NCBI GenBank assembly: GCA_003249025.1
Contig: QBMH01000013.1
Location: forward strand, 1-42,278
Origin: Leptolyngbya sp.
GTDB taxonomy: Bacteria > Cyanobacteriota > Cyanobacteriia > Leptolyngbyales > Leptolyngbyaceae
DNA: 42,278 bases
Direction of reading: 5' to 3'
A model generated the notes under the pieces. The model was not told the origin of the DNA. It ran no database searches and saw only the letters and a list, made by a program, of their open reading frames with translations. Numbering within the stretch: the stretch's first letter is position 1; the number at the start of each line of letters is the position of its first letter. This document shows positions 2,205 through 40,404 of the stretch, piece by piece. Position numbers and translations under genes: made by a program.

Positions 2205-5200
2205 TTACGGCGTAACAATGGTGCTGAGAAGATCCGCAAAGTCTTTGGTGACCGTTGACCAGGGGCGCGATCGCAACCAGTCGGCGCTGGCAAGGCTGCG
2301 CTGCTGCGCTTCAGCCCGATGAGTATAAAGATATTCCAGGTTTTCCACCAGTTCTTCCACATCCGATTCACCCCAGCCTTCCACACCGACCAACTCGGCG
2401 GATGCTTTGACTCGGCGTTGCGATTGCAGTGGGAAGCCCAGGTTTTGTTGAGTCAAATCCCGGTTGCCCGTGTTGTTGGATAGCACCGTTGGCACCCCGC
2501 AGGCAAGGCTAGCGATCGCGCTGTGGTTAATGCCAGCTTCACAGCGACTTGGAAAAACGGCAACATCGACTTGGTGCAATACTTGACCCAGCAAGGCATA
2601 AGCCACAGGTTCAAGCACCAGAAAAGACTCTTTGGGCAATCCGTTTTGACTTAGCCATTGAGAGGTTTCAAGCTGTCCATATGGGTTGAATTCTGGCGTT
2701 CCGATGACATGATGGGCATGATCCAGACCTTTCAGAGAATCGCTATCTGCCCACCAAGAGGTTAACAGTAGTGCATCAGGATGGCGAGTATGAAAGGCTT
2801 TAAATGCTGCAATCAAGATATCCTGACCGTGGGTATAGCTCAATCTGCCAGGGGAAAAGATGACAAAGCGATCGCTCAACCAATCGCCCTTCTTGCTGGG
2901 ATAAAACAAGGTTGGATCAATGCCTTGGAGCCACATTTGAGAGACTTCCAGTCCGTAGCTTCTGAGCAGATCCGCATTCCAGGTGGAAGCCGTGATGATT
3001 GCCCGACAGGATTTTGCGGCTGCCAATGCTGGGTTATCGAGGTGCGTATCTTCTAGAGTGACCAAGGCAATGGTTTGCTGTGGATCGGCAGGCGGACTAG
3101 CGGCAATGGGCGTAAAGCCATCGGCGATCGCCTGTAGCCGTATTCCATTTAATTCATCACTGTTTTCTGTTTTGAGCGATCGCAGCAGCGCCATTTCCAG
3201 CGGAGTCAAATTACTAGAGGCAGCTAACGGATGCTGAAGCGCAGGCGCAAACTGGGAATGGTGCCGCAAGTGCAATGCCAATTGCGTTCCTAAAATGCCC
3301 CAGTCGGTGAGTCCGTTGAGATGCCAGGAAAGAGAAATGGCGAGTGGCGAGTGGCAAGTGGCGATGGGATGTTCGGCGTGAAGCGTACGGTGTGCGGTAG
3401 GCGGTGTTTGCACTGCATCATTTGCCGATTGGGATGGGTCATTTGCACTGCGTAAGGGATCACTCAAAGTGCGTTCTAACTCGCGCCGAATGTGCTGCAT
3501 CACGCTGTGCCAATCGCCGGGTTGGGGTTGCCGGAATAGGCGGAGGGTGGGATACCAGGGGCTATCGGTGCGATCGCACATCCAGCGCCAGTCGGGAGCA
3601 AAGGCTAAAAGTACCCACACGGGTTTTCCGAGCGCTCCGGCGAGGTGAGCGACGGCAGTATCGACGGTGATGATCAGGTCTAGCTGGGCGATCGCGCAGG
3701 CTGTATCCGCAAAGTCCTGTAGCTCCAACCCAACATCATGAACTGGCAATTCAGCAGTTAACTCGGCGGCGGCATCTCCTTTTTGCAGGCTGTAAAAGGC
3801 GACGTTTTCCAGGTCAAATAAGGGCTGAAACTGCTCCAAGCGGCAGGAGCGGAAGCGGTTGTTGCGGTGATTGGGGTTGCCTGCCCAGACAAGACCCACT
3901 TTGAATTGACGATTTTCGATTTTCGATTTTCGAGTGGATGAGGAGACCAAATGGTCTTTCTCTATTCGACACTCGACACTCGGCATTCTTAACTCGACAC
4001 TCGGCACGGGCAGGTAAGGAATATCGGCGGGAATAGTATCGAGGGTGGTGCCGAGGATACGGGGTAGGTTGAGCAGGGGCGCGTGGACATCAAAGGGCGG
4101 CAGTAGGGCATCTTGGGAAATCAGTTGATCGATGCCGGGGGTGTTGGTCAGCAGGCGCAGCAGGGGTTCCTGGCATTCCACAATGACTCGTCCGCCATAG
4201 GCTTTGACGAGGGGCGTATAGCGGATGAATTGCAGGGTGTCGCCCATGCCCTGTTCGGCGTGGAGCAAAATGGTTTTGCCATGCAAGTCGCCGCCATCCC
4301 ACTCTGGCTGCGTAAACGGGCGGACTGCCCAGCCTTCTTGCTGCCAACGCCATTGATATTCCACAAATCCGGTGGTGAATTCGCCTGTCAGTAACAGGGC
4401 GTGTCCCAGATTTTTGTGAGCATTGACGAAATCGGGCTGGAGCGCGATCGCCCGACGATAAGCCGCGATTGCTTCGGGGATGCGATTCGATCGCCGCAGG
4501 GCAAACCCCAAGTTATAGAAGGCATCCGGTGAATCCGGTCTGACTGCCACGACTTGTTCGGCATGTTGCACTGCCGCTTCTGGACGGTTCAGATCCAACA
4601 GCGCCACGCTCAGATTTTGATGTACATTCGGATTGGCAAGATTCAGCGCCAGCGATCGCTCATAGCAGGCGATCGCGTCCTCAAACTGCTGCTGTTCTTG
4701 CAGTGCGCCGCCCAAGTTGCCCCAGCCTTCCGCAAAATCTGGCTGGAGATTGGTTAAATGACGCAACTGGGCGATCGCCTCTTCATACCGCTTCGTCTGG
4801 CACAAAATCACGCCCAACACATGCAGCGCATCCGCTTGATCCGGCTGTTGCTGCAAAATTTGACGATAAATTTGCTCCGCCTCGGCTAAGTTGCCGTTGT
4901 GATAGTGCTGTAAAGCGGTGGAAAGGAGTTCGGGCGTTTGGAGTTCGAGGTTCGGGGTTCGGGGTTCGGGGTTCACACTCCGTACTTCGTACTCCGCACT
5001 CTGCACTTGGTTCACACTCCGCACTCCATCCTCCGCACTCCGCACTTGATTCGCACTCCGTACTTCTTCCAAGGCTATTCTGACCTGCTGCAACACGCTG
5101 TCCCAATCTCCGGCGGTGGGCTGGCGGAAAATTTGCACGGTGGGATACCAGGGGCTATCGTCGCGGTGCAGCATCCAGCGCCAGTCGGGGGCAAAGGGCA

Positions 5201-8200
5201 ACAGCAGCCAGGTGGTTTTACCTAAGGCTCCGGCAAGATGAGTGACGGCAGTATCGACGCTGATGATCAGATCTAACTGCTGAATCAGGCTGGCAGTATC
5301 TACAAAATCGGTCAGCAAGTCGCGCAGATCATGCACTTGAGGATGCGATCGCAGCAAAGTTTCATCATTATCAACCAGATCTTTTTGCAAGCTATAAAGT
5401 TCTATTCCAGGTAAATCTGCCAGCGATAGCAAAGATGCGAGCGGCACAGCACGATTGCGATTGTAGGGATTTCCAGTATTACCAGACCAAACCAAACCGA
5501 TCTTGAATTGCGGATGACGAATTCCGAGTTGCGAACGAGTGACTTCTTCTTTCTGTGGGAATTCACCATTCGGCAATCGACATTCGGAACTGGCTGGATT
5601 GAGGTATGGAATGTCGGCGGGGACGGCTTCCAGGGTGATTCCCAGGATGTTGGGTAGGCTGAGCAGGGGAGCTTGAATGTGATAGGGCGGTGGGGCGCTG
5701 CCGTAGGGAACCAGAGTTTCTACGCCGGGGAGAGTTTTTAGCAGGTTGACCAGAGGGGGATGGCATTCCAAGATCACACGCCCGCCAAGCTGCACAACCA
5801 AGGGCACATAGCGGACAAATTGAATCAGGTCGCCCATCCCCTGTTCTGCATGGAGAAAGATTATTTGCCCATTGAGCGGGGAGCCATCCCACCGAGGACC
5901 GGGAAAGTCGCGCAGAGATTTGAAGCTGGGCAGGTTGACGTGTTTGCGCCATTCATATTCCGCAAAGCCACGCTCTAGATCGCCGCCCACTAATAAAGTT
6001 AAAGCTTTGTTCCAGTGCGCCTCCGAAAAATTGGGTTCGATCGCGGTTGCCTGGTCGTAATACTGAATCGCGGTTTGCAGGTCGCCTTCATCCCGAAAGA
6101 TATTGCCCCAGTTATTGTAGGCTTTGGCGTAATCGGGTTTGAAGCCGATCGCCTGTTGATAGTAAACGGCAGCTTCGGCAAAATTGCCCATCTCTTTCAG
6201 GGCATTACCTAAATGGTTCAGCGCTTGGGGGAAGTTGGGACGCAATGCCACAGCTTGCCGATAGGCAACAGCGGCTTGCTCGAAGTTGCTCATGGCGTAG
6301 TAGGCAAGCCCCAAATTGTTGTGAGCATCGGCGTAGGTAGGGTTTGCCGCGATCGCCTGCTGGTAATGCTGCACCGCTTCTTCCAAGCGCCCCTTTTCCC
6401 GTAGGGCATTGGCGTAATTATTGTGGGCATCGGCATAGTCGGGCTTCAGCGCTAATACTTTCTGATAATGGGCGATCGCGTCATCAAACTTGCCCTGTTC
6501 ATGCAACGCAACTGCCAGATTGTTGTAGGAGTCGCAATGGGTGGGATCAGCCGCGATCGCCCGTTGATAGTGGGCGATCGCCTCATCCAAGTTGCGCTCC
6601 TGATGCGCCATCAGTGCCAGCAGATGCCAGCCATCTGCCAGATCTGGCTGTTGCTCCAGCACCGCTCGACAAGTCTGCTTTGCCGCTTCAATGTCTCCCG
6701 CTTGATGATAACGAACTGCGACCTTGAGCGATTCGGGCAACGTGGATTTGGGCTGAGATATCGGGTGTCGGGTGTCAGGTGTTGGGGGGAAGTTTTGTAA
6801 GTCCTGCGGACTGGCTTTGCCCACGCGTAGCGTTCCCGCAGGGAATATTTTGTTCGCGTCAGCGGCGCTTTGCGCTTTTGAGTGTTGAGTGGAAGAAAGA
6901 GAATGAATGGGAGCAGACTTTACATCAATCCCTTTGCCCTTCTGTTTCTTGCTCTTTTTCTTCCCTCTTTCCTCTTTCCTCTTCCCTCTTTCCTCTTCCC
7001 TTTTTCCTAAAACCTGAAACCTGAAACCTGAAACCTGATCTCTGTCCCTTAATGCCGCTTTCACTTCCACTAAAACGGTTTCCCAGTCGCCATAGCTAGG
7101 CTGACGAAGTAGACGCATGGTGGGATACCAGGGGCTATCAGTGCGATCGCACATCCAGCGCCAGTCGGGAGCAAAGGGCAACAGCAGCCAGGTTGGTTTG
7201 CCTAAGGCTCCGGCAAGATGAGCGACGGCAGTATCGACGGCAATGATCAGATCCAACTGCTGAATCAGGGCGGCAGTGTCGGTGAAGTTATCCAGCCGCG
7301 ATCGCAAATCTTGAATTTCTGGATGGGCTTGCAGTAGTGCCACATCTTCGGGCTTGGGTTCTTTTTGCAGGCTATAGAGGGTTACGCCAGGAATTTCGGC
7401 GAGGGGAAGCAGTAATTCTAGGGGGCAGGTGCGCGATCTATTGTAGGGATTTTGGGGGTTGCCATCCCAGACGAAACCAATCTTAAATTGCGACTGATGA
7501 ATTGCTAACTCGCCTCTTGCCCCGTTCGGCTGAGCGCTCACGTCGAAGCCTTGCCCCTCGCCATTCACTACGGATAGATAGGGAATGTCAGTCGGGATGG
7601 TTTCGAGGGTGGTGCCGAGGATATAGGGCAGACTCATCAAGGGCGCGTGGACATCGAAGCTAGGCAATGGGGTGCCGTAGGGAATGATTTGTTCGATGTG
7701 GGGAATGGCTTGCAGCAGATTAACCAAGGGCGGGTGGCATTCCAGGATGATATGTCCGCCTTGCTGAGCAACCAAGGAGACATAGCGAATAAATTGAATG
7801 GTGTCGCCCATACCCTGTTCGGCATAGAGCAAGACGGTTTTGCCATCCAATGGGGTGCCATCCCAGCGGGGTTGGGTAAAGTTGCGGGAAGGGTTTTGCT
7901 CAATAAACTTGCTCCACTGAAACCGCTGCTCGTATCCAGCAAAGCCAGTTTTCAGGTCGCCAATCAGCAGGTAATTGAGGGCTTTATTCCAGTGTGCTTC
8001 AATAAAATCGGGCTTGAGTTCGATCGCGCGATCATAGGCAATAAAAGCAGCATCGAGATCACCAGAGTTGCGCCGAGCAATACCCAGATTATTGTAGGCT
8101 CCGGCAAAGTCGGCTTGGGTGGCGATCGCCTGGGCAAAATGCTCAAAGGCTTCGTCAAATTCGCCAATATATTGCAGCATGTTGCCCAGATTGCTCCGCA

Positions 8201-9437
8201 CTTCGGCAAGCTCAGGCTTCAGTTCAACGGCTTTGCGGTAGCAGGCGATCGCGTCTTCTAAGCGATCTAGTTCTTGGTAGGCATTGCCCAAATTATTATG
8301 GATTTCTGCAAAACCGGGCTGAAGCGAGAGCGCCTGTTCCAGGTAAGAAATTCCTTCTACGTTTTTTTTCTGATCTCGCAGTACGGCTCCCAAATTGCTC
8401 AAAGCTTCCACAAAATTGGGGCGCAGTTCTAAAGCACGGCGATATTCAGCCACGGCTTCATCTCGCTGACCCAAGCGTTGGAGGGCATTACCCAAGTTAT
8501 TGCAGGCTTCCGCATAGGTGGGGCGGAGTTCCAGCGCTTGACGATAGGAGGCGATCGCTTCTTCGGTGCGATCGCTTTCCAGCAAAAGATTGCCCAAGTT
8601 GTTGCACACACCAGGATAGTCAGGACGGATGACCAGCGCCTGTTTAAATGCCGCGATCGCCTCCTCCACCTTCCCCTGTTCTTGCAGCACCATCGCCAGA
8701 TTATTATAGGTTTCGGCAGAGTCAGGTTTTAGGGTTAGCACATGGGTAAACTGGGCGATCGCTTCGTCTAACTTGCCTTGCTGATGTAGAGTCGATCCCA
8801 AGCTGGTATGAGCATCCACGTAAGTAGGCTTGAGGGCGATCGCCTGCCGAAAATAGTCAATTGCTTGGTCAAGTTTGCCCTGAAGCCGCCAAATAATACC
8901 GAGATTGTGATGGGCTTCCACATAATTAGGCTTCAGGCGTAGCGCGGTCTGATAGCACGAAATCGCCTCGTCTAACTTGCCTTGCTCCTTATAGCTAATA
9001 CCAAGATTGTTGTGGGCTTCGGCATAGTTGGGGTTCAGGGCGATCGCATCGCGGTAACAGGCGATCGCGTCCTCCGCACTGCCGCTTTCCTTTAAGGCAT
9101 TCCCTAAGTTGCTCATCACCTCTGGCTGGTTGGGTTTCAGCGCCAGCGCCTTGCGGTATTGCTCCACCGCTGCTGAATAGTTCCCTTGCGCCTTCAGCAC
9201 GATCGCCACGCTGTTATGCGACTCAGCGGCGGGTCTTAAGGTCAATACCTGCTCAAAATAGGTCAGTGCTTCATCATAACGACCCCGTTCATGCAGCAAT
9301 GCCCCCAGCAAATTAAGCGCATCAATCGATTCGGGCTGCTGTTGTAAGAGCGATCGATAGACCTGCTCAGCTTCAGCCATGCGTCCGGCTCTTTGATGAT
9401 CGAGGGCAGTGGTAATTGAAATCGGCGCTTGGTTCAT
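2205..9437 (-). CDS. Giant TPR / glycosyltransferase polyprotein (2410 aa, three TPR-GT modules plus a terminal GT4-like domain)
   Basis: Module 1 has about 15 TPR units (residues 1-515) and a heptosyltransferase-like GT domain (about 520-780, with AEQGMGDTIQF and DLIIAVDTAVAHLAGALGKP). Module 2 has about 8 TPRs (905-1145) and a second GT domain (about 1180-1440). Module 3 has about 6 TPRs (1505-1680) and a third GT domain (about 1710-1970). The C-terminus (about 2040-2410) is a different, GT4-like glycosyltransferase (FSPGRLSYTHGQDIL; FPSRCEAG; ACGVPTVLSN). The three GT domains share the AEQGMGD motif and the end motif PDWRWM, so they arose by duplication. Linkers near 800-900, 1456-1504 and 1988-2034 are low-complexity and encoded by short tandem DNA repeats. 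The likely role is glycosylation of proteins or surface polysaccharide, with TPRs binding partners; the substrate cannot be told. The ATG at 9437 is the first possible start. No signal peptide is seen. Confidence 0.9.
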   Translation of the reverse strand: MNQAPISITTALDHQRAGRMAEAEQVYRSLLQQQPESIDALNLLGALLHERGRYDEALTYFEQVLTLRPAAESHNSVAIVLKAQGNYSAAVEQYRKALALKPNQPEVMSNLGNALKESGSAEDAIACYRDAIALNPNYAEAHNNLGISYKEQGKLDEAISCYQTALRLKPNYVEAHHNLGIIWRLQGKLDQAIDYFRQAIALKPTYVDAHTSLGSTLHQQGKLDEAIAQFTHVLTLKPDSAETYNNLAMVLQEQGKVEEAIAAFKQALVIRPDYPGVCNNLGNLLLESDRTEEAIASYRQALELRPTYAEACNNLGNALQRLGQRDEAVAEYRRALELRPNFVEALSNLGAVLRDQKKNVEGISYLEQALSLQPGFAEIHNNLGNAYQELDRLEDAIACYRKAVELKPELAEVRSNLGNMLQYIGEFDEAFEHFAQAIATQADFAGAYNNLGIARRNSGDLDAAFIAYDRAIELKPDFIEAHWNKALNYLLIGDLKTGFAGYEQRFQWSKFIEQNPSRNFTQPRWDGTPLDGKTVLLYAEQGMGDTIQFIRYVSLVAQQGGHIILECHPPLVNLLQAIPHIEQIIPYGTPLPSFDVHAPLMSLPYILGTTLETIPTDIPYLSVVNGEGQGFDVSAQPNGARGELAIHQSQFKIGFVWDGNPQNPYNRSRTCPLELLLPLAEIPGVTLYSLQKEPKPEDVALLQAHPEIQDLRSRLDNFTDTAALIQQLDLIIAVDTAVAHLAGALGKPTWLLLPFAPDWRWMCDRTDSPWYPTMRLLRQPSYGDWETVLVEVKAALRDRDQVSGFRFQVLGKREEERGKRKEERGKKKSKKQKGKGIDVKSAPIHSLSSTQHSKAQSAADANKIFPAGTLRVGKASPQDLQNFPPTPDTRHPISQPKSTLPESLKVAVRYHQAGDIEAAKQTCRAVLEQQPDLADGWHLLALMAHQERNLDEAIAHYQRAIAADPTHCDSYNNLAVALHEQGKFDDAIAHYQKVLALKPDYADAHNNYANALREKGRLEEAVQHYQQAIAANPTYADAHNNLGLAYYAMSNFEQAAVAYRQAVALRPNFPQALNHLGNALKEMGNFAEAAVYYQQAIGFKPDYAKAYNNWGNIFRDEGDLQTAIQYYDQATAIEPNFSEAHWNKALTLLVGGDLERGFAEYEWRKHVNLPSFKSLRDFPGPRWDGSPLNGQIIFLHAEQGMGDLIQFVRYVPLVVQLGGRVILECHPPLVNLLKTLPGVETLVPYGSAPPPYHIQAPLLSLPNILGITLEAVPADIPYLNPASSECRLPNGEFPQKEEVTRSQLGIRHPQFKIGLVWSGNTGNPYNRNRAVPLASLLSLADLPGIELYSLQKDLVDNDETLLRSHPQVHDLRDLLTDFVDTASLIQQLDLIISVDTAVTHLAGALGKTTWLLLPFAPDWRWMLHRDDSPWYPTVQIFRQPTAGDWDSVLQQVRIALEEVRSANQVRSAEDGVRSVNQVQSAEYEVRSVNPEPRTPNLELQTPELLSTALQHYHNGNLAEAEQIYRQILQQQPDQADALHVLGVILCQTKRYEEAIAQLRHLTNLQPDFAEGWGNLGGALQEQQQFEDAIACYERSLALNLANPNVHQNLSVALLDLNRPEAAVQHAEQVVAVRPDSPDAFYNLGFALRRSNRIPEAIAAYRRAIALQPDFVNAHKNLGHALLLTGEFTTGFVEYQWRWQQEGWAVRPFTQPEWDGGDLHGKTILLHAEQGMGDTLQFIRYTPLVKAYGGRVIVECQEPLLRLLTNTPGIDQLISQDALLPPFDVHAPLLNLPRILGTTLDTIPADIPYLPVPSVELRMPSVECRIEKDHLVSSSTRKSKIENRQFKVGLVWAGNPNHRNNRFRSCRLEQFQPLFDLENVAFYSLQKGDAAAELTAELPVHDVGLELQDFADTACAIAQLDLIITVDTAVAHLAGALGKPVWVLLAFAPDWRWMCDRTDSPWYPTLRLFRQPQPGDWHSVMQHIRRELERTLSDPLRSANDPSQSANDAVQTPPTAHRTLHAEHPIATCHSPLAISLSWHLNGLTDWGILGTQLALHLRHHSQFAPALQHPLAASSNLTPLEMALLRSLKTENSDELNGIRLQAIADGFTPIAASPPADPQQTIALVTLEDTHLDNPALAAAKSCRAIITASTWNADLLRSYGLEVSQMWLQGIDPTLFYPSKKGDWLSDRFVIFSPGRLSYTHGQDILIAAFKAFHTRHPDALLLTSWWADSDSLKGLDHAHHVIGTPEFNPYGQLETSQWLSQNGLPKESFLVLEPVAYALLGQVLHQVDVAVFPSRCEAGINHSAIASLACGVPTVLSNNTGNRDLTQQNLGFPLQSQRRVKASAELVGVEGWGESDVEELVENLEYLYTHRAEAQQRSLASADWLRSRPWSTVTKDFADLLSTIVTP
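3339..3368. repeat. Heptamer-type repeat inside linker 3 of the TPR/GT gene
   Basis: Near-heptamer units (gcgagtg, gcgagtg, gcaagtg) run in tandem within the coding sequence and encode part of the linker between the third GT domain and the terminal GT4-like domain. Confidence 0.6.
3905..4012. repeat. Short tandem repeats inserted in GT domain 3
   Basis: Two repeat families are adjacent: gattttc-type units (3910-3931) and cgacact-type heptamers (3967-4006). They encode a loop between DIPYLPV and QFKVGLVW. The same loop in GT domains 1 and 2 also carries extra, unrelated residues. Confidence 0.65.
4921..5070. repeat. Heptamer repeat tract encoding linker 2 of the TPR/GT gene
   Basis: Units of the ggttcgg family (about 4945-4975) are followed by cactccg-type units (about 4975-5070). 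On the minus strand they encode a serine/valine/arginine-rich stretch of near-heptads such as VRSANQ, VRSAEDG and VRSVNQ, joining GT domain 2 to TPR block 3. Confidence 0.75.
6755..7040. repeat. Composite repeat tract encoding linker 1 of the TPR/GT gene
   Basis: This tract contains gggtgtc-type heptamers (6757-6785), a palindromic element around acgcgtagcgttcccgcag (about 6818-6855), pyrimidine-rich tttcctc/ttccctc heptamers (6945-7010) and aacctga heptamers (7010-7040). The pyrimidine tract encodes exact heptads of charge (KREEERG, KRKEERG). The 15-mer CCTGACACCCGACAC, read on the minus strand here, also occurs in the spacer before lipA (38452-38483). Confidence 0.8.
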
Positions 9438-9726
9438 CGATGGCTCCCTGCCCTTGCTATCTGGGTGATTATTTTACCCACCCTGTCGCTATAACGGGCG
9501 ATCGTTGTGGAGTTTTCTGTTAAGAAATAAGGAGTTGTCACATAACTTTAGCAATCAAGTACTATTAACTCCAACTTATTAAAGTACGGTATTTTTATCG
9601 ATTCATCGTATATTTCTACAGATTTTTATAAGAGAATCATTGCCTATAATTTTTGCTTGCGGTTCACTGCATTGACACCCTGGCAAATTACGGATAACCT
9701 ACCGGAATACAGTTCTTTTTACAACC
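9438..9726. other. Divergent spacer between the TPR/GT gene and the Crp-family gene
   Basis: This AT-rich spacer of 289 bp must hold promoters for the two divergent genes. I see no clear operator, hairpin or RNA gene in it. The stretch 9525-9660 is the most AT-rich part. Confidence 0.4.
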
Positions 9727-10314: not shown

Positions 10315-10392
10315 CGATCGCTCCTGCTTTTCACTTGAGAAATCAGCATGATAGCAAACGCAAAAATCTAGTAAACACCAAGCTAGTGATCC

Positions 10393-11709: not shown

Positions 11710-11724
11710 TTGCGTCGCGGCTTA

Positions 11725-12490: not shown

Positions 12491-12525
12491 TGCAGGGGGC
12501 GATCGCTCGGTGTTTAAGTGGATTG

Positions 12526-13149: not shown

Positions 13150-13163
13150 AAGGCTAAGAAAAT

Positions 13164-13509: not shown

Positions 13510-14589
13510 ATGCACCAGCTTGCCAGCAAAGTAAAAGTTTCACCGAAGGTATTTACAGCAATCGTGATCGCAGCACTAGGAATTCTAATTTTAGGTTGCT
13601 TGGGCTACCGTTTATATGGACAGCACCAGACGCTTCAAGACTTTGGCAAACAGATTCAATCACTGCCAGCATCTGTTCCCCCTGAAGAGAAACTTAAATT
13701 AGAGAAAGAGCGCATTGCGCTAGAAAGTACGCTCACAAGCACTCTGGCTCAAATCCTTACGGGTGGATTTTTCTTTATCACTGCGTATTTTACTTGGGGA
13801 AACCTTCAAGTTGCTAATGCAAAACAAATCACTGAACGGTTCACCCAAGCCATTAACCAACTCGGAAGTGAAAAAATCGAAGTCCGGTTGGGTGGAATCT
13901 ATGCCCTGGAGCGAATCGCTAAAGATTCACCAAAAGACCACTGGACTATTATGGAAGTTCTGACCGCATTTGTGAGGGAGCGATCGCCTGTTTCAATCCT
14001 GCAAAATGAAGACAGCATACAGCCTAAGATTACTACTGATCTACAAGCGGCATTAACCGTCATTGAACGACGTAATCTAAAAAAAGAAGAGCCTCACCAG
14101 CGCATTAATTTAAGCAGGGTATACCTCAACCGTGCCGACCTCAGAGGTACTAACCTCAGCAGTGCCAATCTCAGACGTGCCAGCCTCCACTGTACCAACC
14201 TCAGTGGTGCCGACCTCAGCGGTGCTGATCTCAGTGGTGCCGACCTCAGTGGTACTAACCTCAGCAGTGCCGACCTCAGAGGTACTAACCTCAGCAGTGC
14301 CGACCTCAGAGGTGCCAACCTCAGTGCCAACCTCAGCTTTGCCGACCTCAGTGCCAACCTCAGCTTTGCCGACCTTAGCGTTGTCAATTTTAGCGGTCCT
14401 AACCTCAGCGATGCCGACCTCTCCTCTTTTATCCCCGGCACTGCTGCTCGGAATTGGACTGAAGAACAGCTTGCCGCAACCAAACTTTGTAACACTAGAT
14501 TGCCAGAAGGGTGCAATTTGAACCCGAACCGAGACTGTGAAGCACTGAGCATCTCACTCGACCCATTTGCAACAGAATCACCTGAGTAG
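13510..14589 (+). CDS. Membrane-anchored pentapeptide-repeat protein
   Basis: This is a 359-aa protein. A transmembrane helix lies at about residues 14-34 (VFTAIVIAALGILILGCLGY) and a second hydrophobic segment at about 80-98 (LAQILTGGFFFITAYFTWG). A conserved block follows (FTQAINQLGSEKIEVRLGGI, then YALERIAKDSPKDHWTIMEV, about 119-160), typical of a cyanobacterial family in this setting. Residues about 197-310 are pentapeptide repeats of the A(D/N)LSG type that should fold as a right-handed quadrilateral beta-helix. The repeats lose register at NLSANLSFADLSANLSFADL, where units are shortened. A cysteine-containing tail ends the protein. The function is unknown. The frame opens at the ATG at 13510; an AGGG lies a few bases before it. 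Confidence 0.85.
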   Translation: MHQLASKVKVSPKVFTAIVIAALGILILGCLGYRLYGQHQTLQDFGKQIQSLPASVPPEEKLKLEKERIALESTLTSTLAQILTGGFFFITAYFTWGNLQVANAKQITERFTQAINQLGSEKIEVRLGGIYALERIAKDSPKDHWTIMEVLTAFVRERSPVSILQNEDSIQPKITTDLQAALTVIERRNLKKEEPHQRINLSRVYLNRADLRGTNLSSANLRRASLHCTNLSGADLSGADLSGADLSGTNLSSADLRGTNLSSADLRGANLSANLSFADLSANLSFADLSVVNFSGPNLSDADLSSFIPGTAARNWTEEQLAATKLCNTRLPEGCNLNPNRDCEALSISLDPFATESPE

Positions 14590-17319: not shown

Positions 17320-20300
17320 ATGCATAGACTGGCAGCAACACCGGGCGGTTGGACTCCTGACACAGAAGGGGTGATTTTTGTGGATCAGACTCCCGCCCCA
17401 ATCGTGTTGATTACCGCAGCGGATACTGACATCAAAGCGATCGCCCAGGCGATGCCCTATCTCCCTGCCAACTTTCCGGCTCTGCGGGTGGTCAATTTGT
17501 TGCAACTTCAGCAGCAATTGTCGATCGACACCTATGCTGAAACTGTTTTGGAGAAAGCTCAAGTGATCGTGCTGCGGCTGTTGGGCGGTCGCTCCTACTG
17601 GTCCTATGGATTGGAAGTGGTGCGCGAGACGGTCGAACGCACGGGAGCAACGCTGATTGTGCTGCCGGGAGATAATCAGCCTGATCCAACGCTGATCAGC
17701 CATTCCACTTTAGCGATCGCCCAGGTAAACCAGTGCTGGCGTTACTTTTTGGAAGGTGGTGTCGAGAACATGGTCAACGCGTTGTGCTGGCTGGCACATC
17801 ACGGGGTGTCGCCGGATTATGACTATGCGCCGCCGCAACTGGTGCCGTCTGCTGGAATCTATCCTTTCTTAATTCCACCTGCAATCCAGAATGCCCCTCA
17901 AGTTGGGATCGTGTTCTACCGAGCGCATTATTTAGCGGGAAACTTGGCTCCAATCGATGCACTCTGTCAGGCATTGAGCGATCGCAATATATGCCCGATT
18001 CCTATCTTTGTCTCGTCGCTGCGAGATCCCGATGTGCAGTCAGAATTGCTGCACTACTTCCGTCCTAAAGATGGAGCTGGCATCCAGGTGTTGCTGAATA
18101 CCACCAGTTTTTCTCTGGCTCAACTGGGAGAGCGAGAGCGCGGCGGTGAACCGACTTCTGACTTTCCAGAGTTGTGGCAACGGTTAGATGTGTCTGTGCT
18201 GCAAGTGATTCTGAGTGGGGGCGGATTGGCGCAATGGCAGCAGGAATGGCGCGGGTTGTCGCCCCGCGATGTGGCGATGAATGTGGCATTGCCAGAGGTC
18301 GATGGACGGATTATTAGCCGTGCGGTTTCGTTTAAGGCGGTGCAAGGTTGGAATGCAGCCTTAGAAACGGAAGTGCTAAATTACCAGCCCGTGGACGATC
18401 GCATTCAGTTTGTGGCGGAGTTGGCGGCAAATTGGGCGAAACTGCGGCAGGAGCAGGTGGGCGATCGCAAAGTGTCGTTGATTTTAGCCAACTATCCGAG
18501 CCGCAATGGTCGCCTTGCCAATGGGGTCGGGCTAGATACTCCGGCAAGCTGTGTGGCAATTCTTCAGGCGCTGCAACAGGCTGGATATCACGTTGAGAAT
18601 ATCCCTGCAACCGATGATGAACTGATTCAACGACTCACGGCAGGCATCACAAATGACCCAGAAACGAAAGGGATGAATCCAGTTAGGCAAACCCTTGAAA
18701 TCGCAGCCTACCAAGCTTGGTTTGAAACACTTCCAGAGACGGTAAAAACTCAGGTTCAAAAACGCTGGGGAGATGCCCAAGACTCATTTGCGATCGCTGG
18801 AATTCAACTGGGTAATATCTTTGTGGGCATTCAACCCTCACGCGGATATGACACCGATCCAGCACTCAACTATCACGCGCCAGATTTAGAACCAACCCAC
18901 GACTATCTCGCGTTTTATCACTGGCTGCGATCGGATTTTGGCACCCATGCGATCGTCCATGTGGGTAAGCATGGCAATTTGGAATGGCTTCCTGGCAAAA
19001 GTGTTGCCCTGTCTGAGGATTGCTATCCCGAAGTTGCCTTTGGGGCGATTCCCCATCTCTATCCGTTTATTGTCAACGATCCGGGGGAAGGTTCCCAGGC
19101 AAAACGGCGATCGCAAGCCGTGATCATCGATCACCTGACACCGCCCATGACTCGCGCCGAACTCTATGGTGGTTTGCAGCAGCTTGAGGGCTTAATTGAT
19201 GAATACTATGAAGCCCAAACGCTTGATCCATCGCGCTTGGCAGTAATTCGCGATCGCATGACGGCATTGATTCAGCAAGAGAATCTCAGTCAGGAAGTCC
19301 AATCCATGGCAGGCGATATAGATCTTGATCAATTTACCCCTGCTGCCCTAACCGAACTGATCACTAACGCCGATCGCTATTTGTGCGAACTGAAAGAATC
19401 TCAAATCCGCGACGGCTTACACATCTTTGGACAATGCCCCGCCGGAAGACAGTTACGCGACCTGATCGTCTCCATCGCTCGCCATCCATCACCGGGACGG
19501 TTAGGCTTGACCCGCGCGATCGCCCAAGTTTGGAACCTTGATTTCGACCCATTGACAGCTGATCCAGCGCAGTTGGTTGAGGAAGGGGAAAGGGAAAAGG
19601 GAAAAGGGGAAATGCGACCTGACTCTCGACTCGCAACTTGCTACACAATCGGAGATGCCGTTGATCTGATTGAAAACTACGCCGCCGAACAGGTTGAGCA
19701 ATTGCTGAATGGAAAGTGTGATTCATCGGATAACGATGAGATATCAACAGAGTTGAACTGGATTCGCGATCGCCTCTTGCCCGATCTACAACACACTGAT
19801 CAAGAAATGTCTTACTTGCTGCATGGATTGGCAGGAGGCTATGTGCCAGCGGCTCCGTCGGGTGCGCCCACGCGGGGTCGCCCGGATGTGTTGCCGACGG
19901 GACGCAATTTCTATTCAGTCGATATTCGGGCAGTGCCGACCGAAAGCGCTTGGGATGTGGGTCGTAAGGCGGCTGAGGTTCTGATCGAAGCCTATACTCA
20001 AGAACACGGCGAGTATCCTAAAACCTTGGCGCTCTCGATTTGGGGCACTTCCACCATGCGAACCGGGGGCGATGATTTGGCGGAGGCACTGGCGCTATTA
20101 GGCGTGCAGCCCGTTTGGGAAGGTGCCTCGCGTCGAGTGATTGATTTTGAGATATTGCCGCTGTCGCTGTTGGGTCGTCCACGGGTCGATGTGACGCTAC
20201 GAATTTCAGGCTTTTTCCGGGATGCGTTTCCCAACTTGATTGATTTGTTTGACCAAGCGGTGACTGCGGTTGCAGCATTGGATGAATCGGCAGATCAAAA

Positions 20301-21126
20301 TCCGCTGGCGGCACAGGTGCAGCAAGAAACCCAAGAGTGGCAGCAGGCAGGCTTGACGGTTGAAGAAGCACAGCAGCGATCGCAATATCGAGTGTTTGGC
20401 TCCAAACCCGGTGCCTATGGCGCTGGATTGCAGGGATTAATCGAATCGCAAAACTGGGAAACCACAGAAGATCTTGCCCGTGCCTACCTCAACTGGAGCA
20501 GCTATGCGTATAGCGCTCAGGGCGTGGGTTACTCGGCACCAGAAGCCTTTGAACGCCGTCTGACCAATCTGCAAGTTGTGCTGCAAAACCAGGATAACCG
20601 CGAACATGATCTGCTCGATTCTGATGATTATTACCAGTTTCAAGGGGGCTTAACGGCGGCGGTACGATCGCTCCAAGGGCAAAACCCAACGGTGTATTTT
20701 GGCGATCATTCCCTGGCAGAAAATCCCAAGGTGAGATCGCTGCAACAGGAGATTGCGCGGGTCTATCGATCGCGCGTCGTCAACCCAAAATGGATCGCTG
20801 GAGCCATGCGGCATGGCTACAAGGGAGCCTTTGAAATGGCAGCAACAATCGACTTCCTGTTTGCCTACGATGCCACCGCCCAATGCGTGGCAGACTATAT
20901 GTATGAAGGCGTGGCAGAAGCCTATGTGCTTGATCCGCAGGTGCAGGCGTTTGTCCAAGAGAAAAACCCTTGGGCGTTGCGCGACATGGCAGAACGGCTG
21001 CTGGAAGCACATCAGCGGGGTATGTGGGAAAACGTGGATCAAACCATGCTGGATCAGTTGCGATCGCTTTCTCTGGAAGCCGAAGCCGAAATTGAAGGAC
21101 GACTGGGAAGTATGGTACAGGCATGA
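17320..21126 (+). CDS. cobN: Cobaltochelatase subunit CobN
   Basis: This 1268-aa protein is of the CobN/BchH family and the usual CobN length. The N-terminus MHRLAATPGGW is that of cyanobacterial CobN rather than magnesium chelatase ChlH. Conserved blocks include HVGKHGNLEWLPGKSVALS (about 546-564), VLPTGRNFYSVD (about 858-869), LALSIWGTSTMRTGGDD and FRDAFPNLIDLFDQA. CobN holds the corrin ring (hydrogenobyrinate diamide) and inserts cobalt with an AAA+ motor during B12 synthesis. No CobS/CobT or ChlI/ChlD gene is nearby, so it probably shares the magnesium-chelatase motor, as proposed in cyanobacteria. A lysine/glutamate/glycine-rich insert (residues 754-765) is encoded by a purine-rich short tandem repeat and lies in a variable loop. 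The ATG at 17320 is preceded only by a weak GAAAG. Confidence 0.93.
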   Translation: MHRLAATPGGWTPDTEGVIFVDQTPAPIVLITAADTDIKAIAQAMPYLPANFPALRVVNLLQLQQQLSIDTYAETVLEKAQVIVLRLLGGRSYWSYGLEVVRETVERTGATLIVLPGDNQPDPTLISHSTLAIAQVNQCWRYFLEGGVENMVNALCWLAHHGVSPDYDYAPPQLVPSAGIYPFLIPPAIQNAPQVGIVFYRAHYLAGNLAPIDALCQALSDRNICPIPIFVSSLRDPDVQSELLHYFRPKDGAGIQVLLNTTSFSLAQLGERERGGEPTSDFPELWQRLDVSVLQVILSGGGLAQWQQEWRGLSPRDVAMNVALPEVDGRIISRAVSFKAVQGWNAALETEVLNYQPVDDRIQFVAELAANWAKLRQEQVGDRKVSLILANYPSRNGRLANGVGLDTPASCVAILQALQQAGYHVENIPATDDELIQRLTAGITNDPETKGMNPVRQTLEIAAYQAWFETLPETVKTQVQKRWGDAQDSFAIAGIQLGNIFVGIQPSRGYDTDPALNYHAPDLEPTHDYLAFYHWLRSDFGTHAIVHVGKHGNLEWLPGKSVALSEDCYPEVAFGAIPHLYPFIVNDPGEGSQAKRRSQAVIIDHLTPPMTRAELYGGLQQLEGLIDEYYEAQTLDPSRLAVIRDRMTALIQQENLSQEVQSMAGDIDLDQFTPAALTELITNADRYLCELKESQIRDGLHIFGQCPAGRQLRDLIVSIARHPSPGRLGLTRAIAQVWNLDFDPLTADPAQLVEEGEREKGKGEMRPDSRLATCYTIGDAVDLIENYAAEQVEQLLNGKCDSSDNDEISTELNWIRDRLLPDLQHTDQEMSYLLHGLAGGYVPAAPSGAPTRGRPDVLPTGRNFYSVDIRAVPTESAWDVGRKAAEVLIEAYTQEHGEYPKTLALSIWGTSTMRTGGDDLAEALALLGVQPVWEGASRRVIDFEILPLSLLGRPRVDVTLRISGFFRDAFPNLIDLFDQAVTAVAALDESADQNPLAAQVQQETQEWQQAGLTVEEAQQRSQYRVFGSKPGAYGAGLQGLIESQNWETTEDLARAYLNWSSYAYSAQGVGYSAPEAFERRLTNLQVVLQNQDNREHDLLDSDDYYQFQGGLTAAVRSLQGQNPTVYFGDHSLAENPKVRSLQQEIARVYRSRVVNPKWIAGAMRHGYKGAFEMAATIDFLFAYDATAQCVADYMYEGVAEAYVLDPQVQAFVQEKNPWALRDMAERLLEAHQRGMWENVDQTMLDQLRSLSLEAEAEIEGRLGSMVQA
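19585..19612. repeat. Short tandem repeat inside cobN
   Basis: The tract contains GGGAAAAGGGAAAAGGGG (19592-19609). Its reverse complement is found exactly at 39457-39474, in the first codons of gpsA. Confidence 0.85.
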
Positions 21127-24814: not shown

Positions 24815-24860
24815 GATCAGTCTATCTCCTATTCCCTATTCCCCATTCCCTTTTTCCTAT
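24815..24860. repeat. Pyrimidine-rich heptamer repeat before the next gene
   Basis: Units such as attccct/attcccc run up to the ATG at 24866. They leave no room for a Shine-Dalgarno sequence. Confidence 0.6.
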
Positions 24861-32325: not shown

Positions 32326-32330
32326 AGGAA

Positions 32331-32418
32331 AGGACGAAGGACGAAGTGTGAAATGCGAAGTGAGGAGTTTTGAGTTTTGAGTTCAACCTCCGTCATTCGT
32401 CATTCGTCATTCGTCATT
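32331..32418. repeat. Heptamer tandem repeats between the cyclase gene and argJ
   Basis: Units include ggacgaa x2, gttttga x2 and gtcattc x4 (32393-32420). They fill nearly the whole convergent spacer and end at the argJ stop. Confidence 0.85.
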
Positions 32419-32421
32419 CGC

Positions 32422-33663: not shown

Positions 33664-33887
33664 GTCACTCTCCCAAAATCACCATACCTGCGGCGATTAT
33701 ATCAGGGTCGGAGTCAGGCGATTGCCATCCGAAGTACGTTTTATTTGAGTTTGAAGAAACAAGTAGAGCAAGTCATCAATAACTATTGATCAGCTGATCA
33801 GCCCAGGCGATCGCCGACTCTAAATAAATTGACAGGCAAGATAGTTTCGGCTAGAAATACGGGAAGTGTGTTTTGAGGGATCAGGCA

Positions 33888-36800: not shown

Positions 36801-36965
36801 CAACGACTTTGCGTCAATCTGAATGGCAACAGCAGCTTAGTTGGAGGCTACACGCTAGCCAACAATGCTGCATTTGGCGCAGGTTCTCAACTGCAAGTGG
36901 TTTTGGGCGCAAACACCGGAGCCGTAACCCAAACCAACACCACCGCTGTGGGCACGTGTCCTTGA
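33888..36965 (+). CDS. Outer-membrane beta-barrel (inverse-autotransporter-like) plus right-handed beta-helix protein
   Basis: This is a protein of about 1025 aa. A signal peptide (MRRRSHCVYGGLLFAIAIAH, cut near AKAQ) precedes an N-terminal ~250-residue domain with alternating strands and motifs such as GGSLVLGYRAYQ, YGAYLAYDNRD, QVGLGLETLGEGWDARINGY and IPAG, which recall the inverse-autotransporter barrel of intimin/invasin. From about residue 315 a parallel beta-helix begins (GGDGTFENPFG), with many PbH1 turns of the form NxIxNTxxQGIVVxxxxG. It is probably an outer-membrane-anchored surface protein exporting a beta-helix passenger, perhaps binding or cleaving polysaccharide. The ATG at 33888 has GAGGGA 7 nt upstream, so it is chosen over a TTG at 33873. 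No catalytic site is identified. Confidence 0.85.
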   Translation: MRRRSHCVYGGLLFAIAIAHPAKAQPNEVAPIPTSTKAADLVITPRVGVGYTTPGGGYDGFANIQGFIPLMQTPGKSLLFLDGRFLLDNNANPGGSLVLGYRAYQSAANRIYGAYLAYDNRDTGSNVFSQVGLGLETLGEGWDARINGYIPAGSTRQTVRETAIASNYAVSSTRFQTNSLLASGTRQQLTIRDVEAAMAGFDAEVGGRLVKFPDDGGDLRGYGGLYYLSAAGSPRVGGVRGRLEARVTDNLLLGVAVQHDGLFGTNVFGTISLTLPGVRPKGAAPKSLLARMAESPTRIGTIAIDQQREITNITAPFTDLAIDNPATGQPYFFQHVIVGRSGGDGTFENPFGIVQSALNATRSDGNSIVYVQAGNNSGIPAFTVRDRVQVLSTFPAQIIPAAFQGQRIPDLQLPLSNLGAIRPNVTGTVTMQNDTVLSGFNITSATGAGVTFSNVRNVEIRDNVISNTADAGVLGNGVNTLLLLRNQINRATNQGVYIQNASGTVNLISNQVSGTVGGTTTISNPITNDVSFTNPLGGGVITIPNPGSIIPLPSGQGIVVGSVNGTTNILDNTIVNTATQGIVVLNATGNLAIANNSIANTIGADAPVTVPTIGTLNIPSGQGIVVGGANGTTNISGNTVSNTRGQGLTLAGASGTVTIANNTLTKTLDQGLTLAGTAATVSITNNLISEVGTRAFTTPPIAALGGVAFNIATGQGIFVAGATGSLTISNNTIERVDGSVPVNPLPIPPGGQGLVLGNFSGQLDFTLSNNQIRNNFNDGVFMTFANTATATVTIRGNTIENNGILPTPVPIRGDGIAIAADQNASISNLLIENNLIQNNGDDGIDLRLGSLFPLGAANAQVTGNIRNNTVTINTTPLLANTFAGIQVEARGRTEARVTIENNTVNANNPAAQAINLQTFGVTPILVFLVGGSNPLISANVRFNTLTGPGNPGFRALTGLDNVPLNFAFNNPQRLCVNLNGNSSLVGGYTLANNAAFGAGSQLQVVLGANTGAVTQTNTTAVGTCP

Positions 36966-37071
36966 GCCATTAGGAACTTTCATTCAATTGGCATGAGAAA
37001 ACGCATAGCGCCAAATAGCGAATCCAAAGGTCAGGATAGACGTGTAACGTTGCTAATAAAAGGACTCTTCC

Positions 37072-38289
37072 ATGACTGAACCCAGGGCAAACACGGTCGT
37101 ACCCGCTCAAACAACCGCGATCGCCTACAACATCGAGCAAGCCGTTCGGGAACGCTATGAAGCTGGAGCGCAAGAACCAGAAGCATTGTTGTGTTGCCCA
37201 ACGGATGGCTACGACTCCTCCTATTTAGAACGATTGCCCCAAGAAATCATCGAAAAAGATTATGGCTGTGGTGATCCGACTCGCTATGTGAATCTGGGTG
37301 AAACCGTGGTGGATTTAGGGTCGGGAGCCGGAAAAAACTGCTACATTTTGGCACAACGGGTGGGTGCAGCGGGGCAAGTCATTGGTGTAGATTTCAACGA
37401 AGAAATGTTAGCCCTATCGCGCAAATATTTAGAAGAAATGGGTGACAAACTGGGCTATCGCAATCTGGAATTTGTCAAAGGCAAAATTCAAGACTTAGCC
37501 CTAAACCTCGATCGCATGGAGTCGTGGTTGCAGCAAAATCCGATTACGACCCTGGAGGGTGTTGCCGCCTTTGAAACAGAGCGCGATCGCCTCCGCAGTC
37601 AGACCCCACTCATCGCCAGCGATAGTATCGATGTCGTTATCTCCAACTGTGTACTGAACCTGGTTCGCCCTCAAGATAAACAGCAGTTATTTGCCGAGAT
37701 TTTTCGCGTCCTAAAACGAGGTGGACGGGCAGTCATTTCAGATATCGTGTGCGATGAAGACCCCACTCCAACCATTCTCAACGACCCCAAACTTTGGAGC
37801 GGATGCATTGCCGGAGCATTTCGTGAACACACTTTCTTGGAAATGTTTGAACAAGCGGGTTTCCACGGTATCGAAATTTTGACGCGGCAAGAAGAACCGT
37901 GGCAAGTGATTGATGGCATCGAGTTTCGATCGCTCACAGTGCGGGCTTACAAAGGGAAACAAGGTTTATGCTTGGAACGGAATCAAGCTGTGATTTATAA
38001 AGGTCCCTGGAAATCCGTCCAAGATGATGATGGTCATACGCTTTATCGGGGTCAACGGATGGCAGTCTGCGACAAAACCTTTCAGCTTTATACTGACCCA
38101 CGCAGTCCCTATCATCAAGACATGATTCCTGTCTTACCTCATGCCACCATTCCACTCGAATCCGCTCCGGTGTTCGATTGCTCACGAGATTCCCTACGTC
38201 ACCCCCGCGAAACCAAGGGCGTAAATTACCGCGATACGATCGCCGATACTGGCAGCGCATGTTGCGATCCAGCCACCAATTGTTGTTAA
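37072..38289 (+). CDS. ArsM-like SAM methyltransferase with cysteine-rich C-terminus
   Basis: This 405-aa protein has a Rossmann methyltransferase core (VVDLGSGAGKNCYILAQRVG, VIGVDFNEEML). Three cysteines at positions matching the arsenic-binding cysteines of ArsM are seen: C66 (YGCGDP), C193 (ISNCVLNL) and C245 (SGCIAGA). C41-C42 and the C-terminal CCDPATNCC (397-405) add further thiols. The C-terminal domain contains MAVCDKTFQLYTD, as in longer bacterial ArsM relatives. It is probably an arsenite S-adenosylmethionine methyltransferase or close relative, acting in the cytoplasm in arsenic or metalloid detoxification. AAGGA is about 7 nt before the ATG. It has no arsenic gene neighbours here, so the substrate remains inferred. 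Confidence 0.8.
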   Translation: MTEPRANTVVPAQTTAIAYNIEQAVRERYEAGAQEPEALLCCPTDGYDSSYLERLPQEIIEKDYGCGDPTRYVNLGETVVDLGSGAGKNCYILAQRVGAAGQVIGVDFNEEMLALSRKYLEEMGDKLGYRNLEFVKGKIQDLALNLDRMESWLQQNPITTLEGVAAFETERDRLRSQTPLIASDSIDVVISNCVLNLVRPQDKQQLFAEIFRVLKRGGRAVISDIVCDEDPTPTILNDPKLWSGCIAGAFREHTFLEMFEQAGFHGIEILTRQEEPWQVIDGIEFRSLTVRAYKGKQGLCLERNQAVIYKGPWKSVQDDDGHTLYRGQRMAVCDKTFQLYTDPRSPYHQDMIPVLPHATIPLESAPVFDCSRDSLRHPRETKGVNYRDTIADTGSACCDPATNCC

Positions 38290-38451
38290 GTTCAGAATGT
38301 CGTATCTAGCTGGATTCGTTGTCTAGGTTGAACGACAAGTTGACGAAACTGAAGCATGACCATGAGACGTGCCAGGGAGGGAGGATGTTAGTATAACGAC
38401 CCAGCGCAGATCACCTTTTCTTTCCCCCGCCAAAGTCAGCCGCACCTAACG

Positions 38452-38483
38452 CCTGACACCCGACACCTGACACCCGACACCTG
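38452..38483. repeat. Heptamer tandem repeat upstream of lipA
   Basis: The 14-mer CCTGACACCCGACA is present twice plus a partial third. A 15-nt core is shared with linker 1 of the TPR/GT gene. Confidence 0.9.
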
Positions 38484-38526
38484 CCTCTTTGATACACTAA
38501 ACCCATACACACACCAGGATTTGAAC

Positions 38527-39420
38527 GTGGTTGTTAAGCCAGAATGGTTACGAGTTAAAGCGCCTCAGTGGGAACGGGTTGGCAAAGTCAAAGACGTTCT
38601 GCGGGATTTAGGGCTGAATACGGTCTGTGAAGAAGCCTCTTGCCCCAACATTGGCGAATGCTTTAGTCATGGCACTGCCACTTTCTTGATTATGGGTCCT
38701 GCCTGCACTCGTGCCTGCCCCTATTGCGATATTGACTTTGAAAAGAAACCGCAGCCGCTTGACCCCACGGAACCCGATCGCCTTGCGGAAGCAGTTCGCC
38801 GGATGCGCCTAAATCATGTGGTAGTGACTTCGGTGAATCGGGATGACTTGCCCGATGGTGGTGCTTCTCAGTTCGATCGCTGCATTCACGCCATTCGCGC
38901 TGCATCCCCCGGCACGACGATCGAAGTGCTGATTCCTGACCTTTGCGCCAATTGGAACGCCCTAGAGATCATTCTCAACGCCAACCCAGATGTGCTAAAC
39001 CACAACACTGAAACGATCGCGCGCCTCTATCGTCGGGTTCGCCCCCAAGGAGACTATGGGCGATCGCTGGAATTACTGCGCCGCACCCGTGAACTTGCCC
39101 CTTGGGTCTATACCAAAAGCGGCATCATGGCAGGCTTGGGTGAAACCGATGAAGAAGTGAAACAAGTCATGCATGACCTGCGGCAAGCGGATTGTGACAT
39201 TCTCACCATTGGTCAATATCTCCAGCCCAGCCAAAAGCACTTAGGAGTCCAAGACTTCATCACGCCGGAGCAGTTCGATGCATGGCGTGATTATGGCGAA
39301 TCCATCGGCTTTCTACAAGTGGTGTCTTCTCCTCTCACCCGCAGTTCCTACCACGCCGAACAGGTGCGCGCCCTCATGGAACGCCACCCACGCAGTACAG
39401 GTTTGAGTGATAAGGTTTGA
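38527..39420 (+). CDS. lipA: Lipoyl synthase
   Basis: This is a 297-aa radical SAM enzyme that inserts two sulfur atoms into octanoyl groups. The auxiliary cluster cysteines are C34, C39 and C45 ([12 protein letters not shown]); the radical SAM cluster is C60-C64-C67 (CTRACPYC). The C-terminal RSSYHA motif supplies the serine ligand. The GTG at 38527 ([17 protein letters not shown]) fits the family, with AGGA 7 nt upstream. A TTG two codons earlier has only 1 nt spacing and is rejected. It ends directly against gpsA. Confidence 0.96.
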
Positions 39421-39423
39421 GTG

Positions 39424-40404
39424 ATGAATGATCCAATCCCTCTCCCTTTCTCCCTTCCCCTTTTCCCTTTTCCCTTAACGATCGCCATTCTCGGTGCCGG
39501 AGCTTGGGGAACCACTCTGGCAACCTTAGCTTCCCAACAAAGGCATAGGGTGCGGCTATGGTCGCGACAAGGTGAGGAATCCTTGCAGTCTGTGTTAGCT
39601 GGGGCAGACATGATAGTTTCTGCCGTGTCGATCAAAGGGGTGCGGCAGGTGGCGGAGCAAGTGCGATCGCTGCAAATTTCGCCCAATGTCATCCTCGTTT
39701 CTGCCACTAAAGGGCTTGACCCCGATTCCGGCAGCGAAGCAGAATTACCTTGCTTACCGTCGCAAATCTGGCAGGCAGCCTTCCCTGATCACCCCGTGGT
39801 GGTGCTATCGGGACCCAATCTTTCAGCAGAAATTCAAGAACACTTGCCCGCTGCAACGGTGGTTGCCAGTGCCAACGAAATGGCGGCTGAACGGGTACAG
39901 CAGGCACTTTCTTCCAACAGATTTCGGGTTTACACGAATGCTGATGTTTTAGGGGTGGAGTTGGGCGGCATTTTGAAAAATGTGATCGCGATCGCCGTGG
40001 GTGCCTGCGACGGTTTGCAACTGGGCACCAATGCCAAAGCTGCTTTGGTCACTCGTGGTTTAGCAGAAATCATCCGCATCGGCACCGATTGGGGCGCTAA
40101 ATCCGAAACTTTTTACGGTTTATCAGGACTTGGCGACCTGCTTGCTACCTGTAATAGCGCCCTCAGCCGCAACTATCAAGTCGGTTACGGCTTGGCTCAA
40201 GGAAAACCCTTGTCCGCTGTATTGGAATCTCTACAAGGCACGGCTGAAGGCATCAATACAACCCAAGTTCTGATGCGCCTTGCCAGCCAACAGCAGATCG
40301 CCCTGCCCATTTCTCATCAGGTTGATCAATTGCTCCAAGGAAAGATTACGCCCCAAGCCGCTCTTAAAGCTTTAATGCTGCGCGATCGCAAATCTGAAAA
40401 TTGA
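39424..40404 (+). CDS. gpsA: NAD(P)-dependent glycerol-3-phosphate dehydrogenase
   Basis: This 326-aa protein reduces dihydroxyacetone phosphate to sn-glycerol-3-phosphate for lipid synthesis. The NAD-binding loop is ILGAGAWGTTLA; other motifs are VSATKGLD, VVLSGPNLSAEIQ, GGILKNVIAIAVGACDGLQL and YGLSGLGDLLATC. The first ~18 residues (PIPLPFSLPLFPFPL) are encoded by a pyrimidine-rich short tandem repeat and replace the usual short start before the first beta strand. The lipA TGA is followed at once by GTG (39421) and ATG (39424), so translation is probably coupled. Confidence 0.95.
   Translation: MNDPIPLPFSLPLFPFPLTIAILGAGAWGTTLATLASQQRHRVRLWSRQGEESLQSVLAGADMIVSAVSIKGVRQVAEQVRSLQISPNVILVSATKGLDPDSGSEAELPCLPSQIWQAAFPDHPVVVLSGPNLSAEIQEHLPAATVVASANEMAAERVQQALSSNRFRVYTNADVLGVELGGILKNVIAIAVGACDGLQLGTNAKAALVTRGLAEIIRIGTDWGAKSETFYGLSGLGDLLATCNSALSRNYQVGYGLAQGKPLSAVLESLQGTAEGINTTQVLMRLASQQQIALPISHQVDQLLQGKITPQAALKALMLRDRKSEN
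39438..39476. repeat. Short tandem repeat forming the gpsA N-terminal codons
   Basis: Pyrimidine tract with CCCCTTTTCCCTTTTCCC at 39457-39474, an exact reverse complement of 19592-19609 in cobN. Confidence 0.85.

Follow-up and report, generated by a model that had tools for sequence, protein, structure and literature searches.

Spacer-type heptamer repeats in the reading frames of a Leptolyngbya genome

The window (the whole 42,278-nt stretch of Leptolyngbya DNA analysed here) carries tandem heptamer repeats between genes and also, in frame, inside several of them. The original prediction named in-frame arrays in a gene encoding TPR and glycosyltransferase modules (TPR/GT), in a loop of CobN and at the N-terminus of GpsA, and proposed that the repeats spread as units and supply new linkers; every named array is present. 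Spacer arrays of the window are as follows.

24828..24860: (CCTATTC)n in a spacer, nearly alignable in the sister species, G001 (MAG PMM_0083)
32330..32420: AAGGACG, GAGTTTT and CGTCATT arrays in the spacer from a GGDEF gene to argJ (TIGR00120)
38452..38483: (GACACCC/GACACCT)n in the spacer upstream of lipA (TIGR00510)

In-frame arrays of the window

The main host of in-frame arrays is the TPR/GT gene, with at least seven arrays over four linkers or loops.

2205..9437, minus strand: TPR/GT gene, an ORF of 2410 aa; three TPR plus GT9-like (heptosyltransferase-type) modules, then a glycosyltransferase-like C-terminal part (Pfam TPR, Glyco_transf_9)
7522..7550, minus strand: 29-nt dispersed repeat, coding GFDVSAQPN in frame
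7006..7038, minus strand: (CAGGTTT)n array in the first inter-module linker, coding QVSGFRFQV
6952..7008, minus strand: (GGAAAGA/GGGAAGA)n array, coding KREEERGKRKEERGKKK
6789..6890, minus strand: dispersed repeat within the first linker, coding KAQSAADAN
6761..6786, minus strand: (ACACCTG/ACACCCG)n array, coding TPDTRHP
4928..5046, minus strand: heptamer arrays in the second linker, coding EVRSANQVRSAEDGVRSVNQVQSAEYEVRSVNPEPRTPNLEL; resembles a 94-nt piece within mutS
3910..4007, minus strand: two arrays, (CGAGTGT)n and (CGAAAAT)n, within a third-GT-domain loop, which encode PSVELRMPSVECRI...TRKSKIENR
3338..3364, minus strand: fourth-linker array (GCCACTC)n, which encodes ATCHSPLAI

Period-7 DNA makes up 31%, 57%, 37% and 15% of the four linkers or loops and is absent from the remaining 6,492 nt; the arrays thus lie in linkers as predicted, though by this coverage in four and not three. 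The heptad peptides KREEERGKRKEERG are indeed encoded by the array at 6952-7008, a site occupied by an AGGGAAC array in the sister species. Between the array at 6761..6786 and the spacer array at 38452-38483 a match had been claimed over 15 nt; it is real and longer, a 19-mer (ACACCTGACACCCGACACC). Both dispersed repeats recur in the sister genome: the one at 6789..6890 matches several places there, its KAQSAADAN peptide occurring in GlmS too, and the 29-nt repeat is found at several places with 100% identity. This 29-nt repeat was also seen in frame in unrelated genes (window 7522-7550; L108 6697; L063; L152), read as GFDVSAQPN or, on the opposite strand, as VRLSAHVEA.

Across 17 TPR/GT loci we counted 59 arrays of period 7, with only four of period 8, two of period 9 and one of period 10. 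Linker columns in an alignment of ten species are 24% identical, versus 71% and 58% in the adjacent domains, and in an AlphaFold2 model of a piece of the protein the first linker (residues 153-246 of that piece) has pLDDT <50, so that disorder is predicted for it.

The TPR/GT gene of genome G058 is frameshifted exactly across the heptamer-rich linker (L071, reverse strand, 5061-5241), where the arrays (AAAACTC)n-(CCCCACA)n are open in both frames; judging from the sequence, adding or losing a single 7-nt unit would do just this. Such a case, a unit length that is not a multiple of three, and the position of the gpsA array (see below) after the start codon could be expected of phase-variation switches, in which one unit gained or lost shifts the frame and leaves the protein off or truncated. 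However, these are short, degenerate arrays of about 2-7 units, their hosts are housekeeping enzymes, orthologous arrays are mostly in frame, and the frameshift is the single one among the cases examined, in a draft genome. We consider phase variation a very improbable role for these arrays.

In-frame heptamer arrays of the window also lie in cobN and gpsA.

17320..21126, plus strand: cobN, cobaltochelatase large subunit (TIGR02257, 1667 bits; Pfam)
19583..19612, plus strand: (GGGAAAA)n array in the CobN loop, coding EEGEREKGKGE
39421..40404, plus strand: gpsA (NF011212, 499 bits), with ATG likely at 39424
39437..39476, plus strand: (TTCCCTT)n array, which encodes the N-terminal extension of GpsA, PLPFSLPLFPFPL

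As predicted, an exact 18-mer, GGGAAAAGGGAAAAGGGG, occurs in cobN (19592-19609) and, on the opposite strand, in gpsA (39457-39474). Exact matches of 18 or 19 nt were rejected as proof that arrays had been copied: any two arrays with the same unit share them, so that they tie families together and leave copying unproved.

The flanks of the cobN array are 92% identical in DNA to the sister species, while the 100-nt loop itself (19569-19668) is unalignable. At this place the sister gene has a different tandem array, (CACTCCTT)n, coding YSFTPSLLHSFTP; it was rejected as a heptamer case, being an octamer. Other genera have different repeat-coded inserts or a short loop, and among CobN orthologues arrays of periods 7, 8 and 9 number 21, 4 and 4. 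A longer repeat-like insert, of PPKSPRMGDFE or PPKSPFRRGTLKSEAPFLRGLGG type, was observed at the loop site in L055, L056 and L057 (one genus) and in L050.

An N-terminus coded by a heptamer array is present in five of 29 GpsA orthologues (the window, L004, L005, L007 and L008), with units that are all different. We found no ATG, GTG or TTG in these five genes from the array to the NAD-binding GxGxxG motif, and the array must therefore be translated if starts are canonical; on such start-codon grounds its residues should be part of the protein. GpsA residues 1-13 have pLDDT below 50 in the AlphaFold2 model, which predicts them to be disordered, and most of the core about 90 or more. The lipA stop and the gpsA start are spanned by a 14-nt tandem duplication (AGGTTTGAGTGATA/AGGTTTGAGTGATG; window 39399-39425).

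One could speculate that old spacers, made coding by gene fusion or by an upstream shift of the start, gave rise to the TPR/GT linkers and the GpsA N-terminus, with no insertion of repeats into genes. After all, gpsA adjoins lipA, its array sitting where the former spacer was, and the TPR/GT protein is modular, with linkers resembling spacer DNA. Still, several genera have a fused TPR/GT ORF of about 2300-2400 aa, with differing linkers, and the internal loops of single enzymes (CobN and, as described below, GlmS, MutS, LeuRS and a GlcE-like protein) cannot be former spacers. These loops already contradict fusion or start shift as a general explanation, and for the TPR/GT linkers and the GpsA N-terminus it seems to us improbable.

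Period 7 in genes and spacers of the genome

The host genome, whose relatives are of Leptolyngbyaceae type, is a 5.46-Mb draft in 407 contigs; our sample covered 1.35 Mb, ~25% of it (80 contigs beyond the window), with genes outside the window called by our own hexamer model (85% coding). Since arrays can break assemblies, so fragmented a genome might suggest an artefact of assembly or binning, but the same patterns are present in the one- to three-contig genomes G006, G015, G023 and G026 and the ORFs remain open across the arrays; we give an artefact almost no credence.

The comparison of coding with spacer DNA that the original prediction called for gave period 7 the lead in both, with 30 and 41 arrays, respectively. 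In spacers it is the commonest tandem period, periods 6 and 8 having only 2-3 arrays. In genes it is the commonest as well; period 15, a multiple of three, has 23 arrays, periods 6, 8, 9, 12 and 14 yielded 6, 2, 4, 8 and 7 arrays, and no coding period from 4 to 14 other than 7 exceeded eight arrays in 1.15 Mb. The period-15/27 array at 14123-14421 of the window belongs to a pentapeptide-repeat protein and has no relation to the heptamers. Codon-shuffled genes of the sample contained no period-7 arrays, versus 30 in the real genes, and chance is excluded as the origin of the coding arrays. As period 7 tops coding DNA though 7 is not a multiple of three, a process at the DNA level is indicated, not repetition at the level of protein.

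While 30 of the 71 period-7 arrays in the sample are intragenic, by density they are mainly intergenic, at 20.5 per 100 kb of spacer DNA versus 2.6 per 100 kb of genes, in which they are thus depleted 8-fold. At least one strand is open in all three frames in 88% of spacer arrays; all three frames are commonly open together because a 7-nt unit runs through every frame in 21 nt. With so many spacer arrays open on one strand, absorption into genes should be easy.

Host genes and turnover between species

Beyond the TPR/GT gene, hosts of arrays include genes for MutS (two arrays), leucyl-tRNA synthetase (LeuRS), GlmS (three), NAD synthase (NadE), nicotinate phosphoribosyltransferase, citramalate synthase, o-succinylbenzoate synthase, a CobG/NirA-type reductase, a GlcE-like oxidase, a CbiG-like protein and histidine kinases as well as CobN and GpsA; hosts were identified via Pfam, NCBIfam and solved homologues. 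Against solved proteins the arrays of MutS, GlmS, LeuRS and CobN fall in insertions or poorly aligned junctions. Thus, MutS 302-309 and GlmS 146-152 lie opposite gaps, MutS 707-719 and GlmS 303-325 within unaligned inserts, and the LeuRS array ahead of the anticodon-binding domain, at a junction that aligns poorly.

Comparison of 122 kb of orthologous coding DNA with the sister species yielded 69 indel segments, 10 distinct ones of which carry period-7 arrays; the controls, periods 5, 6, 8 and 9, gave 0, 1, 2 and 2. Clean cases are the GlcE-like gene, with a difference of 7 aa, and nicotinate phosphoribosyltransferase, with one of 23 aa. Array-coded residues, those of CobN, GpsA and the TPR/GT protein among them, are species-specific and unconserved in orthologues, as the original prediction had anticipated, and at fixed sites one array stands in place of another. 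Matching residues encoded by ordinary DNA were looked for in distant orthologues of these three proteins and not found.

The idea that three 7-nt units keep the frame in steps of 21 nt held in part. In-frame heptads and differences of +/-21 nt do occur, and the 7-aa (21-nt) difference, in seven of the 69 segments, is among the joint-commonest sizes above 1 aa. No general 21-nt superperiod was found in coding arrays (p = 0.37): subtracting identity at lag 14 from that at lag 21 gave -0.015 for coding arrays and -0.020 for those in spacers. With the lag test negative, we rejected such a superperiod as the trace of three-unit expansion in genes; isolated 21-nt order is seen, e.g. in the TPHTPLP repeats of G032. 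The general interpretation accordingly stands for species-specific residues from a spacer pool and not for a general 21-nt step.

The concentration of arrays in inter-domain linkers and their recurrence at the same sites across many genera might be taken to mean that the linkers are selected for a function (spacing, flexibility or interaction), the repeats being an adaptive source of peptides. But the peptides are unrelated across species (those of one may be rich in charge and those of another in proline), arrays are absent from many relatives, the 8-fold depletion in genes points to purifying selection, and recurrence at permissive sites is explicable with no function at all. Adaptive use of this kind is, in our opinion, distinctly unlikely.

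Origin of the coding arrays and known systems

Coding and spacer arrays draw on common units. The 84 arrays compared have 43 distinct units, with 104 pairs of identical units (8.7 in composition-preserving shuffles) and 334 pairs one step apart (86 in the shuffles). For 18 of 36 coding arrays the unit is also present in spacers, versus 2.2 in a composition-shuffled null. These data support the conclusion that coding units are drawn from the spacer unit pool.

Longer matches were also observed. The TPR/GT linker matches the mutS insert over 94 nt (77%), both reading EVRSAEDGV; the nicotinate phosphoribosyltransferase insert has a 77-nt composite match to a spacer; and a histidine kinase gene matches a spacer at 41 of 41 nt over the junction of a dispersed repeat and an array, a partly nonperiodic sequence. 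Since BLAST E-values are too optimistic on low-complexity DNA, we put weight on the shuffle tests and on the 41-nt match. The tripled AAAACTC unit is patchy, being found in 11 of 116 genomes of the class with 1 to 51 matches each, and has 11 matches genome-wide in the host; a reversed-pattern control is uninformative for this unit, which reversed is a rotation of itself.

The dispersed repeat CGTTCGCGTAGCGTCTCCGTAGGAGATAT was noticed adjoining heptamer arrays or lying within them, both in spacers and in genes such as those for GlmS and a histidine kinase (L192 8073-8101, L223 11439-11467, L228 5100, L209 7804). Two copies are close to the N-terminus in the sister orthologue of the L118 gene.

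Slippage in place from chance seeds, with no movement between loci, could also produce arrays, shared units then reflecting a slippage bias for heptamers. The arrays are short and imperfect, and many of their units (43 distinct in 84 arrays) are simple variants of each other, as slippage would have it; that biased slippage could explain the shared units weighs against the account that we prefer. However, identical and one-step pairs far exceed the shuffles, some inserts combine two families at once (e.g. the 23-aa difference in nicotinate phosphoribosyltransferase), a 77-nt composite is common to gene and spacer, and so are 41 of 41 nt of nonperiodic dispersed repeat plus array. Slippage alone is a possible explanation, though we doubt it.

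Very probably, in our view, spacer repeats land or grow within genes and persist wherever the protein can carry a disordered in-frame peptide without harm. The repeats would be of STRR (short tandemly repeated repetitive) type, i.e. short imperfect tandem 7-nt arrays often fused to small dispersed repeats, and the process making and spreading them would be blind to the distinction of spacer and gene, so that arrays would keep landing or growing in genes. Those likely to survive would lie in a loop, domain linker or terminus tolerant of added residues and would change the length by a net multiple of three with no stop codon. Surviving arrays would then yield low-complexity, disordered-looking heptad peptides with turnover faster than that of the surrounding protein. 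We infer that arrays are copied from, or recombine with, one another and that their peptides are nearly neutral. More tentatively, and with doubts about as strong as those over slippage alone, arrays and small dispersed repeats might form a pool that is recombined into permissive sites of essential genes, swapping peptide cassettes between sister species and continually supplying linkers.

With such arrays in frame in many housekeeping genes, spacer-type DNA would be becoming protein repeatedly. Here is a direct route, at the level of sequence, from noncoding repeats to protein segments, with snapshots in sister species of gain and replacement in housekeeping enzymes. As a 7-nt unit keeps the frame only in three-unit steps, repeat dynamics can be measured against purifying selection. 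Annotators and structure modellers should be warned that repeats encode many of the unique loops in these cyanobacterial proteins.

STRR heptamers have reportedly long been recognized in cyanobacteria. They are described between genes and within an RNA gene. Their features are a 7-nt unit, many related units, abundance in spacers and variable copy number; likewise, period 7 dominates here, related units are dispersed and the arrays are mainly intergenic, a likeness in these general features. The difference is that here many housekeeping proteins contain in-frame arrays, which turn over in a species-specific manner. Nostoc is also said to have families of small dispersed repeats (SDR), and the short dispersed repeats that adjoin heptamer arrays here or lie within them, CGTTCGCGTAGCGTCTCCGTAGGAGATAT for instance, resemble these in general description.

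Genome-wide heptamers of GGGGA(T/C)T or GGGNATC type are reported for Nostoc and Xanthomonas, 68% of the Nostoc ones intergenic and a minority intragenic, in passages of a paper on G-quadruplexes and gene expression that deal with neither encoded peptides nor turnover in frame (PMC4692102). The heptamers are genome-wide here too, but most units are not of the GGGNATC type. Among open-licence papers, none turned up that describes peptides encoded in frame by cyanobacterial heptamers.

Rickettsia palindromic elements are dispersed repeats of roughly 100-150 nt. Passages of a later paper cite their presence in protein-coding genes (Ogata 2000, 2002, via PMC5896051). As in our case, spacer-type repeats are in frame in unrelated genes, adding peptide segments that are absent from orthologues. 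A palindrome with fixed ends is not seen here, where tandem heptamers of varied unit and length are joined by small dispersed repeats. Among the systems compared, the Rickettsia palindromic element is the nearest precedent for spacer repeats read in frame.
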